Source: an uncultured Curvibacter sp. (GTDB lineage: Bacteria > Pseudomonadota > Gammaproteobacteria > Burkholderiales > Burkholderiaceae_C). From it: a DNA stretch of 64,000 nucleotides. Location: the NCBI GenBank assembly GCA_903828535.1, contig CAIKMN010000010.1, positions 124,001 through 188,000 on the forward strand. The letters are read 5' to 3'. Shown here piece after piece: positions 44,830 through 53,357 of the stretch. The position numbers and the translations under genes are program-made. The notes under the pieces were generated by a model that saw only the letters and a program-made list of their open reading frames with translations, ran no database searches and was not told the DNA's origin. The first letter of the stretch is position 1. Each line of letters begins with the position of its first letter.

Positions 44830-47800
44830 GTGAGCCCTCACCCGAACCAAGTCCTTGATTTCGCCAGCCTGCCAATGTGGGGCTCACGCTTGATCGAAGC
44901 CAGTGCCGGCACGGGCAAAACATGGACGATTGCCGCGCTCTACCTGCGTTGTGTTCTGGGTCAAGGCGGCTTGGAAGGGCCGTTGTCCAAGCCCTTGCAT
45001 CCCAAAGAAATCTTGGTGATGACCTTCACCCGCGCCGCAACCCGTGAACTGGGTGAACGCATTCGCACCCGTTTGGTGGAGGCGGCGGCTTTCTTGCGCC
45101 AGCCCGACCAGTCCGATCAGTCCGACCAGTCCGACCAGTCCGATCAGTCCGACTTGAGCAAAACCAAGGATCCGGTTTTGCTGCAACTGGACACTGATTT
45201 CAAAGAGCCGCAGGCCAGGGCAGAGGCGATCCGGCGTTTGAACGCGGCGGCTCAAGCCATGGATGAGGCCAGCATTTTTACCATCGACGCTTGGTGTCAA
45301 CGGGTCTTGCGGGAGCAGGCTTTTGACAGCGGAGCCGCCTTTGACGAAACCCTGTTGAGCGATGAGAAATCGTTGCTGAACGAGGCGGTGCAAGATTATT
45401 GGCGCAGCGAGTTTTATGGCTTGTCTCCACGGTCGGGACTGTTGGTTTTTTGTTTGGACACGTGGCCCACGGTAGCAGCATGCGCGAAAGATGTGGGCGA
45501 GTTGTTGCGCTTTGAAGCGCCCTCTGAAAAAGTGACCGCGGGCCTTGAACTGTCTTTGCAAGAAAGCCTAGAGGCCGCATTTCCGGCACCATTGGCCGCC
45601 CTGATGTCGCAAGCGCCGGTCCAAGTGGCCGACATGAAAAATTGGTTGACTGCCCAACTGGCTCAGCACCCGACGCATTGGAGCAAAACCAAAGTGGCGG
45701 CTCATTCGGTCAAAAAATGGTTTGAAATTCTGGCGCCTTGGTCAAACTTATCGCGGCCTTTGGCTTTGCCCAAAGACAAAGCGCTGCTGACTGGGTTAAA
45801 GCGATTGACGCCCCCAGGTTTGCTGGATGGAAGGGTGAAAGCCGCCCCTGATTTTTTGCCGCCATCTGCTTTTACTTGGTTCGAGCAGGTGCAAGCCGAG
45901 TATTCGGCCTGGGAATCAAATGCCGCTCACAGCCCCAACGCCTTGATCCGCCAGCATGCATCGCGGCGAGTGGCTCAGCGAATGGCCCAGTTGAAACAAC
46001 AAGCCGGCTTATTTGGTTTTGCCGATTTGCTGCGCCGCTTGGAGCAGGCCTTGCGCCAATCCCCCTCCTTGCGTGAGCAGTTGGTGCGGCAATTTCCGGT
46101 CGCCATGGTCGATGAATTTCAAGACACTTCGCCGCTGCAATACCGGCTGTTCGATCACATTTATCGAATCCAAGACAACGCACCCGACAGCGCCTTTTTG
46201 ATGATTGGCGACCCCAAACAATCGATTTATGGTTTTCGCGGGGCCGACATTTACAGTTACTTGCAAGCCCGTTCTGCGACCGAGGGCAGGCACTACCGAT
46301 TGGAGCGAAATTTCCGATCCACCGAAGCCATGGTGAAGGCCGTCAACCAAATCTTTGAGCGTGCCGAGCAGGCTTTGCCAGAAGGGGCTTTTGGGCTGCT
46401 GCCTTTCGTGCCCGTGGCGGCTCAGGGGCGCGATGAAGCGTGGGTGAACGAACGCGGCGTCTTGCCCGCCATGACCTGCGTTGCGGACCTGAATCTCAAA
46501 AACCAAAACGAGGTTCGGGCTTCCATGGCCGAGTTGGCCGCTGAACAAATGGTGGACTGGTTGAATGACGCCCGCAATGGGTTCTTGAAGGGTTCTCAAT
46601 GGCGTCGGCTTCGGCCCAAAGACATCGCTGTGTTGGTGCGCTCTGGCGTGGAAGCGCAAGCCGTTCGACAGGCCATGCGAAAATGCGGTTTGGCGTCGGT
46701 GTATTTGTCTGATCGTGAATCGGTTTTTGAAAGCGAAGAAGCCCGGGATTTGGTGCATTGGCTGCGTGCGGTTGCTGAGCCCCGCGACAACGCCTTGGTT
46801 CGCGCTGGCTTGGCGCTGAAATTAATCGACTTGTCCCCCGCCGAATTGTTGGCCTTGGCCGATGACGACGCGGTGTTTGACCGGGATGCCAGCAAGGTCC
46901 AGGACTTGCATTCGATTTGGCAAACGCAAGGCGTGATGGCCATGTTGCGTCAAACCCTGCATCGGTTTGAATTGCCTTCGCGTTGGACCGCACAAACGGG
47001 TTTTGAACAAGGTGGCGGGCGTGGTGGCGAGCGTCGACTGACCAATTTTTTGCACCTGGCCGAGCTGCTTCAAACGGCCAGCCAAGAGATCGAAGGCGAG
47101 CAAGCCTTGATTCGTTGGTTGGCTGAAGAAATGACCCTGGATGAGGGGCAGACCTCTTTGGAGGCTGATGCCGCGGTGCTGCGCTTGGAAAGCGACGATG
47201 ATTTGGTCAAGGTCGTGACGATTCACAAAAGCAAGGGCCTGGAGTACCCGGTTGTCTTTTTACCCTTTGCGACCAGCCTCAAACCCTTGAATAAAACCAG
47301 GGTCAAGTCGGCATTTCTGCCGAATGCGGCGGGTCATCGTGAATGCGTTTTGGACCTAGAGAACGAGCAGAACCAACAGCGTTTTGAGCAAGAACGGCTG
47401 CGCGAAGATTTGCGTCTTTTGTACGTGGCCCTGACCCGCGCACAGCATGGCCTTTGGCTGGGTTTCAGCGCCGTGAAAATGGGCCAATCTTCGGCTGATC
47501 AAACCCACCGAAGTGCCTTGGGTCATTTGTTGGCGCCCTCGCTTGACTGGGCCCAAAGTTTGAACGACTTGGCAGATGCGGCGGGCCCCGATGGCTTCGT
47601 TTGGACCCATAAAACGGCTGATCTCGAACCTGGCGCCGCTTTGCCCTTGACCCGTCTGCAAGAATCGCAGGCAGATCAAACGGGGCTTGCCCCACTGACT
47701 TCAGTCCACTCAACCCAGGCGATCGAGCCGCTCGAATACCAGGGCGATTTTGACAAAACATGGAGCGTGGCCAGCTACTCCCGCTTGACACGGGAACTGC

Positions 47801-50770: not shown

Positions 50771-51157
50771 ATGTTTGAACTCACCATGATCTCAACGATT
50801 ATTCCCCTCATCTTGCTGATCGTGTTCAGCCCCTTGATCTTGGCGCTGCTCTTGATTGGGTTGCAAAAAAAGGTGAATATGTTTTACCCAGCCACAGGGA
50901 TGATTAAAACGGGCTATGTGGGTTACAGCTGGACCTATTTGGCGTTTGGTTGGCTGGTGCCGATTTTTCGGGGTGAAATAGCGATTGCCCTCATGCACCT
51001 GGTCATTTATTGTGTGACCTTTGGCTTCTCCCAACTGGTGTTGCCTTTTTTGTACAACCGCCAATACATGACGCGCATGCTCACCAGCGGTTGGCAATTG
51101 GACCGGAACGACCCGAATTATTTGCTGGCTTGCCAAAAGCTGAACATCATGCCGTGA
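50771..51157 (+). CDS. Small integral membrane protein of unknown function
   Basis: This 128-residue protein has three likely TM helices: residues ~8-33 (IIPLILLIVFSPLILALLLIGL), ~49-68 (GYSWTYLAFGWLVPIF) and ~72-96 (IALMHLVIYCVTFGFSQLVLPFLY). A short soluble tail follows (MLTSGWQLDRNDPNYLLACQKLNI). The GYSWT...FGW.VP.FRG motif recurs in small DUF2628-like membrane proteins. No function is known to me. It starts 11 bases after recD and may be the last gene of that unit. A period-7 repeat and hairpin follow. Confidence 0.75.
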   Translation: MFELTMISTIIPLILLIVFSPLILALLLIGLQKKVNMFYPATGMIKTGYVGYSWTYLAFGWLVPIFRGEIAIALMHLVIYCVTFGFSQLVLPFLYNRQYMTRMLTSGWQLDRNDPNYLLACQKLNIMP

Positions 51158-51170
51158 GTTGAATCAATTC

Positions 51171-51240
51171 AGCTTTGGCTTAATGCTTAATGCTCAAAGC
51201 TCAAAGCTCAAACCTAAAGGCTAAAGGCTAAATGCCTTTA
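51171..51240. repeat. Degenerate heptanucleotide tandem array (GCTNAAN)
   Basis: Ten heptads run in perfect 7-base phase: agctttg, gcttaat x2, gctcaaa x3, cctaaag, gctaaag, gctaaat, gccttta. The array fills the gap between the membrane protein and the leftward nucleosidase gene and reaches the latter's stop codon. Confidence 0.85.
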
Positions 51241-51241
51241 G
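51221..51241. terminator. Hairpin CTAAAGGC-TAAAT-GCCTTTAG at convergent gene ends
   Basis: A perfect 8-bp stem with a 5-base loop, built from the last heptads of the array, sits between two convergent genes. No long U-run follows, so it may be a weak bidirectional terminator. Confidence 0.45.
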
Positions 51242-51825
51242 GGGCTTTCAAGTTCAGCCAAGGTTTTTAAGAACAGGGCCTGTCCGTGGCTCACCGATTG
51301 CGACCAAGTTCGCGCTGAGGTTTCGTTGGCGTCGTCGCTGATGTATTTATAAGACCGCCAAGGCAGCCCGAATTCGTGGGCCACATGGGCGATGGCAAAC
51401 AGCTCCATGTCGACGATGTCCACGCCGTTCTCAGCCAACCATGGGTCGTGGGCGGTGACAAAGCTGTCACCGGTGCCGCAGCACACCTGGGTGTTCCGCG
51501 TGCCCAAGGGCGGTGCGGCTGAATAGCGCTGCGGCCGCTCACAAAAAGGCGTGACGCCGCGCGGCGACAAGGGCTCGGCGGACATGTCTCGTTGCAGCAC
51601 TTCTCGCACCTCGACCAAGCCACTCACACCCGGATGGGTTCGTCCTGCGGTGCCGAAATTGAGGAGGCCTTGCGGTTTAAAACGCGCAATCGCTTGCCCT
51701 GTTTGAACTGCTGCATTGAGTTTTCCCACCCCTGTGTAAACCAACTCGATGCCATGAGGCAGTTGAGACACCGAAATTTCGGCGGGCAGGGCGACCAGTA
51801 ACAACCAGCGAGGAGATTGACGCAT
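51238..51825 (-). CDS. Nucleosidase, MTA/SAH nucleosidase-like
   Basis: This 195-residue protein is a nucleoside phosphorylase/hydrolase-fold enzyme related to MTA/SAH nucleosidase (Mtn). Conserved segments are LVYTGVGKLNAA, LLNFGTAGR, VDMELFAIAHVA (substrate glutamate) and KYISDDANE (catalytic Asp). It is shorter than E. coli Mtn (232). The probable reaction releases adenine from methylthioadenosine or S-adenosylhomocysteine; futalosine hydrolase is an alternative. I chose the ATG at 51825 because the 36 residues upstream in the track ORF are encoded by the heptanucleotide array. No ribosome site is visible. Confidence 0.85.
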   Translation of the reverse strand: MRQSPRWLLLVALPAEISVSQLPHGIELVYTGVGKLNAAVQTGQAIARFKPQGLLNFGTAGRTHPGVSGLVEVREVLQRDMSAEPLSPRGVTPFCERPQRYSAAPPLGTRNTQVCCGTGDSFVTAHDPWLAENGVDIVDMELFAIAHVAHEFGLPWRSYKYISDDANETSARTWSQSVSHGQALFLKTLAELESP

Positions 51826-51832
51826 GAGGAGA

Positions 51833-51867
51833 GCGAATGGCGAATGGCGAATGGCGAATGGCCAATG
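51833..51867. repeat. Heptanucleotide tandem array GCGAATG (4 perfect copies plus 1 variant)
   Basis: Four perfect GCGAATG copies (51833-51860) and one GCCAATG lie between the nucleosidase start (8 bases away) and dbpA, followed by a further degenerate aaaaatg unit. The track ORFs that include it translate the repeat and are not credible N termini. Confidence 0.9.
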
Positions 51868-51893
51868 AAAAATGGAGGGAAGGGTTTGGCGTC

Positions 51894-51899
51894 GATAAT
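51894..51899 (+). promoter_or_regulatory. -10-like GATAAT 6 nt before dbpA ATG
   Basis: The sequence reads GATAAT-TCTCCC-ATG. It has exact leaderless spacing, no Shine-Dalgarno and no clear -35. Confidence 0.4.
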
Positions 51900-51905
51900 T
51901 CTCCC

Positions 51906-53357
51906 ATGAACACCCGCGCTCAACCTGCCTCATCTTCTGGGGCCTTCGCCCCTCATTCGCTGTCTTTCGACGCCTTGGCCTTGACCCCAGCGGCCTTGAG
52001 CAATTTGCAGCAATTGGGGCTGACCCACATGACCCCCATTCAGGCCGCCAGCTTGCCCTTGACCTTGGCGGGCCATGACCTGATCGCTCAAGCCAGCACG
52101 GGCAGCGGCAAAACCGTGGCCTTTGGTTTGCCCTTGGTTAACCGTTTGGAAGCCCCTCGTATGAATGTGCAGGCGCTGATTTTGTGTCCGACCCGCGAAC
52201 TGGCCGACCAAGTGGCGCAAGAAATCCGCCGCCTGGCACGTGCCGTGGAAAACATCAAAGTGGTTACCTTGTGTGGCGGCGTTCCACTTCGCGGCCAAAT
52301 TCTCAGCTTGGAGCATGGCGCCCATGTGGTGGTCGGCACGCCGGGGCGCATCCTGGATTTGATTGACCGCAACGCCTTGCATTTGGGCGCCGTTCAAACC
52401 TTGGTGCTGGACGAGGCCGACCGCATGTTGGACATGGGTTTCTTGGACGACATCGCCAAAGTGGTCAAGCAATGTGGCGTCAATCGGCAGACGCTCTTGT
52501 TTTCGGCCACCTACCCGGAAGGCATTGACCGCTTGGCCGCGCAGTTTTTGAAAAATCCCAAAACCGTTCAAGTGGCGGCCCAACACGACATGAGCACCTT
52601 GCAACAGGTGTTTGTTGAAGTCAAAGAAAACGAGCGCTTGTTGGCCGTCTCGCAGGTGCTTCGCCATTACCGGCCGACCTCAGCGCTGGCGTTTTGCAAT
52701 ACCAAAAACCAATGCCGCCAATTGGTGGCTCAGTTGCAGGCACAAGGCTTCAGCGCCATGGCCTTGTTTGGCGAGTTGGAACAGCGCGAGCGTGATCAAG
52801 TCATGGTGCAATTTGCCAACCGCAGTTGCAATGTGCTCGTCGCGACCGATGTGGCGGCCCGTGGTTTGGACGTGGCCGATTTGGCCGCCGTCATCAACGT
52901 CGATGTCAGCCCCGACCCCGAAGTACATGTCCACCGCATTGGCCGCACCGCCCGGGCGGGCGCTCAGGGCTTGGCGGTGACGCTCGCGAGTTTGGATGAG
53001 ATGGGCTATGTCGGCCGCATTGAGTTGCTGCAAGGGCGCGAATCCGATTGGCTGCCGTTGGCAGAATTGTCAAAGTCCAAGGACGCAGAACCGCCTTTAA
53101 AAGCCCCCATGGCCACGCTGCAAATTGTGGGCGGCCGCAAAGAAAAGATTCGCGCTGGCGACGTTTTGGGGGCCTTGACCGGCGAGGCCGGTTTTCAAAA
53201 AGAACAGGTTGGCAAGATCAATGTCAACGAATTCTCAACCTATGTTGCCGTCTCGGCAGCCATTGCCCGGGAGGCCGTGCAAAGACTGTCAGAAGGCCGC
53301 ATCAAGGGACGCATGGTCAGGGTCAGGCTGCTGGGGTTGAACAGCAGCCCGGACTGA
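51906..53357 (+). CDS. dbpA: ATP-dependent RNA helicase DbpA
   Basis: This DEAD-box helicase has 483 residues. Motifs are ASTGSGKTVAFGLPL (I), PTRELADQVA (Ia), VLDEADRMLDMGF (II, DEAD), FSATYPEG (III) and HRIGRTARAGAQG (VI). The C-terminal domain (TLQIVGGRKEKIRAGDVLGALTG...) is the DbpA RNA-binding fold that recognises hairpin 92 of 23S rRNA, which distinguishes it from RhlE or SrmB. It acts in late 50S assembly. The ATG at 51906 was chosen because upstream residues of the track ORF come from the heptad repeat. Confidence 0.95.
   Translation: MNTRAQPASSSGAFAPHSLSFDALALTPAALSNLQQLGLTHMTPIQAASLPLTLAGHDLIAQASTGSGKTVAFGLPLVNRLEAPRMNVQALILCPTRELADQVAQEIRRLARAVENIKVVTLCGGVPLRGQILSLEHGAHVVVGTPGRILDLIDRNALHLGAVQTLVLDEADRMLDMGFLDDIAKVVKQCGVNRQTLLFSATYPEGIDRLAAQFLKNPKTVQVAAQHDMSTLQQVFVEVKENERLLAVSQVLRHYRPTSALAFCNTKNQCRQLVAQLQAQGFSAMALFGELEQRERDQVMVQFANRSCNVLVATDVAARGLDVADLAAVINVDVSPDPEVHVHRIGRTARAGAQGLAVTLASLDEMGYVGRIELLQGRESDWLPLAELSKSKDAEPPLKAPMATLQIVGGRKEKIRAGDVLGALTGEAGFQKEQVGKINVNEFSTYVAVSAAIAREAVQRLSEGRIKGRMVRVRLLGLNSSPD

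Follow-up and report, generated by a model that had tools for sequence, protein, structure and literature searches.

According to the survey of Mrazek (2007), as reported in later papers (PMC4679880, PMC4692102), long repeats in most bacterial genomes are more often heptanucleotides than any other class. In the account of that survey given by MacGregor (2015, PMC4679880), the ten genomes with the most repeats of 5–11 nucleotides include four from the betaproteobacterial genus Burkholderia. Individual heptad systems have also been described. In Xanthomonas, a single dispersed G-rich motif, GGGAATC, is present in ~185 copies, has G-quadruplex potential and forms 70–75 inverted pairs per genome (Rehm et al. 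2015, PMC4692102). In Beggiatoaceae, a single motif, TAACTGA, occurs at 169 sites, and the function proposed for it is an inference of its author (MacGregor 2015, PMC4679880). In the neuO gene of E. coli K1, the heptamer lies within the coding sequence and its on/off effect has been demonstrated (PMC13001214). The initial annotation of the locus studied here knew of no description of tandem heptamers in this group; the reported place of Burkholderia among the richest genomes, as that survey is relayed in PMC4679880, shows that heptads had in fact already been noted there. A literature search for the repeat strings themselves found no relevant paper.

We analyzed the locus within its window, the whole 64,000-nucleotide stretch of DNA from the genome studied (G000), that of a freshwater betaproteobacterium. 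Two intergenic period-7 arrays do flank one nucleosidase gene, as first described (Table 1), and each has three or more 7-bp units joined head to tail, beyond what chance would give. When the window was simulated with a first-order Markov model, the expectation was 0.025 segments of such strength per 64 kb whereas exactly two were found, arrays A and B, indicating that neither is a chance string. The unit counts were in part mistaken. Array A, given as ten units, has eight, in the order GCTTAAT (two), GCTCAAA (three), CCTAAAG, GCTAAAG and GCTAAAT, of which seven fit GCTNAAN, and 4 bp separate its end from the nucleosidase stop codon (51238–51240). Array B does consist of five 7-mers, however only four of them are the GCGAATG originally listed. 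The protein encoded between the arrays belongs to the phosphorylase/nucleosidase superfamily (Pfam PF01048, E 1.1e-16), and its match to the NCBIfam model PRK05634 'nucleosidase' (E 1.2e-29) falls below that model's cut-off. A profile search with ORF128 gave no family match. Elsewhere in the window, at 45099–45153, six 9-bp units (CCAGTCCGA) lie within a 1276-aa helicase-like ORF and encode a DQS repeat.

Table 1 Features at the locus, in window coordinates.
Feature	Position	Strand	Description
ORF128	50771–51157	+	128 aa; convergent with the nucleosidase gene; 99% identical in G008
Hairpin 1	51171–51208		Left part of array A plus sequence upstream; arms AGCTTTG / CAAAGCT; RNA folds on both strands
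Array A	51178–51233		Convergent intergenic region; eight 7-bp units
Hairpin 2	51213–51242		Arms CCTAAAGGC / GCCTTTAGG; right arm overlaps the nucleosidase stop codon
Nucleosidase-family gene (PNP_UDP_1)	51238–51825	-	195 aa
Array B	51833–51867		Divergent intergenic region; GCGAATG x4 plus GCCAATG
Conserved block	51884–51911	+	Spans the dbpA start and the sequence just before it; identical in three species (alignment)
dbpA	51906–53357	+	ATP-dependent RNA helicase; NCBIfam PRK11776, E 3e-212

We compared the locus with those of the nearest relative, an uncultured Curvibacter sp. (G008) whose aligned parts are about 93% identical to G000 in DNA, and of a second relative (G003). The nucleosidase proteins of the two are 91% and 75% identical to that of G000, respectively, and the order ORF128 - nucleosidase - dbpA is kept in both, however arrays A and B are absent from the matching gaps. 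At the site of array B, the sequence of G008 is shorter by exactly 28 bp (4 x 7), with one degenerate unit, GCAGATG; at the site of array A it reads GCCCAATGCTTAATG, about two degenerate units. Because the same gene order exists without the arrays, these must have expanded once the gene was already in place. This agrees with the suggestion that the arrays mark slippage hot spots, the difference in copy number being one between species. Identical copy numbers in all relatives and a lack of other heptad arrays would, for the initial annotation, have made the arrays a local accident; in fact the relatives differ and further heptad arrays are present in the genome.

The arrays had also been proposed to be traces of a gene insertion, in which case they would mark the boundaries of an inserted cassette. 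Indeed, the nucleosidase gene is patchy in the genus, occurring in three of nine genomes, those of 2.3–2.5 Mb. Its nearest homologues beyond the genus are only 46–57% identical and mostly from Bradyrhizobiaceae, mainly Afipia, Tardiphaga and Nitrobacter (46–54%), along with a few betaproteobacterial MAGs (47–57%). However, both array-free relatives carry the gene in the same place, which contradicts insertion as the origin of the arrays, and the two arrays differ in sequence and thus are not a target-site duplication. We therefore regard a role as cassette boundaries as extremely improbable. None of the 38 loci encoding relatives of the nucleosidase in named genomes, G008 included, had a period-7 array within 300 bp of that gene.

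We then surveyed short tandem arrays in 1.56 of the 2.34 Mb of the genome (67%), sampled in stretches, with a crude gene caller that misses the nucleosidase gene and makes all intergenic counts approximate. Five intergenic arrays had period 7, compared to four, seven, six and eight for periods 8, 10, 11 and 13, so that period 7 is no commoner than these others. Arrays with periods not divisible by three were mostly intergenic (38 of 46), whereas intergenic DNA makes up 12% by the approximate gene calls. For 26 arrays with periods of 7–16, matching sites could be placed in G000 and G008 with flanks 79–99% identical, mostly above 88%, and nearly all of these arrays were absent or altered in the other species. 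Arrays of other periods thus behave like arrays A and B, and since other unit lengths also differ between relatives, there is nothing special about period 7. In 353 kb of aligned DNA we counted eight indels of 7 bp versus five of 8 bp and four of 5 bp, and only two indels were tandem duplications of a 7-bp unit. Neither the array counts nor the indel spectrum support a period-7 bias of this genome.

Only three further sites in the genome have three tandem copies of GCNNAAN, and one of these sites apparently lies within a coding region. Heptad arrays of other sequence include TTCAAGG (L030:14310) and AGCCTTA, which follows a stop codon (L044:1308). The longest heptad array seen in the genome is TTTACCT x8 with degenerate flanking units (L124:17694-17773, contig C11), which takes up an intergenic gap called as divergent. 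GGCGAAA x3 (GCGAAAG phase; L036:7293-7314, contig C36) lies directly before a start codon, in the ribosome-binding position, and is reminiscent of the Beggiatoaceae TAACTGA repeats; the gene after it looks by eye like a LysR-type regulator. An eight-base array, CAAAATCT, with about six exact units, lies near the start of contig C10 (L025:74-143).

The main result is the fast turnover of short intergenic tandem arrays, of which both heptad arrays are examples. We think it probable that arrays A and B are separate, recent products of tandem duplication, with replication slippage as the likely molecular step, and that they form part of a genome-wide process in which arrays of 7–16-bp units arise and are lost quickly between genes. 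Each array would have started from one or two heptamer-like units already present in its intergenic gap, the two gaps being neighbours, once this lineage had separated from the closest relative sequenced. Array A may have come to serve as a transcript-end structure, or to replace one, through two hairpins that it happens to form where the two convergent genes share their 3' end, and array B is probably leader filler. What speaks against this account is the coincidence of two heptad arrays with loosely similar units (GCTNAAN and GCGAATG) flanking one gene: from ~6–8 heptad arrays per 1.56 Mb and ~650 called intergenic gaps, roughly 0.05 such pairs are expected. The pair is unlikely but was picked after the fact, so the bracketing is weaker evidence, and arrays of other periods are so frequent that neighbouring arrays are to be expected. 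An ordinary arrangement is most likely, rather than a shared switch.

The initial annotation placed array B in the control region shared with dbpA and suggested that its copy number would shift promoter spacing. The conserved block, TTTGGCGTCGATAATTCTCCCATGAAC, is invariant in G000, G008 and G003, contains a -10-like GATAAT at 51894–51899 and is wholly on the dbpA side, with array B between it and the nucleosidase start codon. A dbpA -35 box at the normal distance would begin past the end of array B, and the array lies neither between -35 and -10 nor in a coding frame. A change in copy number would therefore leave a -35/-10 spacing of dbpA unaltered, and on the position of the array we rejected a dbpA promoter-spacing switch. 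Array B precedes the nucleosidase start codon (51825) by 7 bp, probably in the 5' leader of that gene, and its copy number could matter for the nucleosidase through this leader. Array B would then be a contingency locus, with copy-number changes tuning or switching nucleosidase expression. Its closeness to the start codon is in line with this, as are the Beggiatoaceae heptamers just upstream of start codons (PMC4679880) and the switching of neuO by heptamer slippage, though within coding sequence (PMC13001214). However, five copies, one of them degenerate, are short for a contingency locus, the nucleosidase is a housekeeping-type enzyme as opposed to a surface structure, the core block of dbpA is not affected, and the region lacks a promoter-like match, a promoter search having found no consensus promoter there. 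On balance we find such a locus unlikely. Array B is largely unstructured, RNA folding giving z +0.27 over the whole gap and z -2.4 for the array alone. It probably makes the nucleosidase leader longer and has no specific role.

The hairpins of array A could be a sign of selection, and this too would speak against the slippage account. The convergent gap between ORF128 and the nucleosidase gene is only 80 bp, and on both strands array A with its left flank folds as a pair of adjacent hairpins (z -3.5 on the + strand and -3.2 on the - strand). On the - strand, hairpin 2 gives a terminator-like match in which the stem is present and the T tract is weak. We considered that array A might be a selected bidirectional transcript-end element, in which heptad duplication would have produced a pair of hairpins for terminating or protecting both convergent transcripts. 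The predicted hairpins, the terminator-like match and the small gap are consistent with this, as is an unrelated hairpin, GGCCCA...TGGGCC, at the same place in G008. On the other hand, the U tract is not strong, RNA folding finds no significant structure in the corresponding gap of G003, and such structure can arise automatically where repeats lie beside a chance inverted copy. We consider selection for this role possible but rather doubtful. The role is compatible with a slippage origin, and both can hold; if array A truly marks the ends of transcripts, slippage would here have created a new terminator. Rfam gave no match, for array A or otherwise.

A search for GCKNAAN x4 across the family found arrays in 17 of 351 genomes, and several of these arrays turned out to be inverted pairs. 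A direct search for GCGTTNRGCGTT...AACGCYNAACGC gave matches in 13 of 401 family genomes, compared to none with a reversed control pattern; a sample of 229 genomes from across the class had no match. The arms of these intergenic palindromes are tandem heptads, GTTNRGC / GCYNAAC. Genomes with them include G098, G119, G227, G257, G385, G389 and G409, and loci include L184, L188, L193, L203 and L224. With a looser pattern, palindromes were found in all 13 genomes, with ~8 distinct sites in G227 and 10 in G385, whereas G000, G008 and G003 had none; inverted arms of the form GCGTT...AACGC also had no match in these three. The palindromes fold strongly, with z to -11, and two copies in G098 have an identical loop, which suggests dispersal. 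Selection for exact pairing of the arms was not supported, as own and foreign arms fold alike (-28.1 vs -28.0 kcal/mol) and arms showed no co-variation between loci at variable positions (p 0.37). We also set aside integron attC sites as an explanation for the GTTRRRY-like heptads of the relatives, as many units break the consensus and the arms are tandem, whereas attC core sites are single. Array A could be a diverged local case of these palindromes, which would then be an undescribed kind of intergenic element within the family, with arms of phased tandem heptads and recurrent in some genomes, that acts on transcript ends or as a multi-site protein-binding element. However, array A is like the palindromes in layout and unlike them in motif, and we do not class it with them; that it belongs there seems to us improbable.

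In this small-genome freshwater lineage, short tandem repeat formation between genes thus appears as a genome-wide tendency by which intergenic DNA is rebuilt through tandem duplication, so quickly that most arrays differ between species that are ~93% identical in DNA. Given this turnover, a striking repeat pair does not in itself indicate function.

The known heptad systems each share some features with the arrays described here. Like the neuO heptamer (PMC13001214), in which 7-mer copy number changes by slippage, these arrays appear to vary in unit number, however they are non-coding. Array B resembles the Beggiatoaceae repeats, whose short heptad arrays mostly lie directly before start codons (PMC4679880), whereas GCGAATG arrays are not dispersed in G000; this genome does not have one heptad recurring in arrays at many sites, as in the Xanthomonas and Beggiatoa types. 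The Xanthomonas GGGAATC repeats (PMC4692102) are, as here, intergenic tandem heptads, frequently close to 3' ends, and their length is likewise not conserved between species. Arrays A and B in contrast are two unrelated local units with no G tracts, and it is the GTTNRGC / GCYNAAC palindromes of the family that resemble the inverted GGGAATC pairs (PMC4692102). In contrast to the heptad abundance of the 2007 survey, as relayed in later papers, period 7 in G000 is not in excess over 8, 10, 11 and 13. The arrays are nevertheless like the repeats of that survey, so far as these are described in PMC4679880 and PMC4692102, in being of period 7, intergenic and varied in unit, and in being put down to polymerase slippage.
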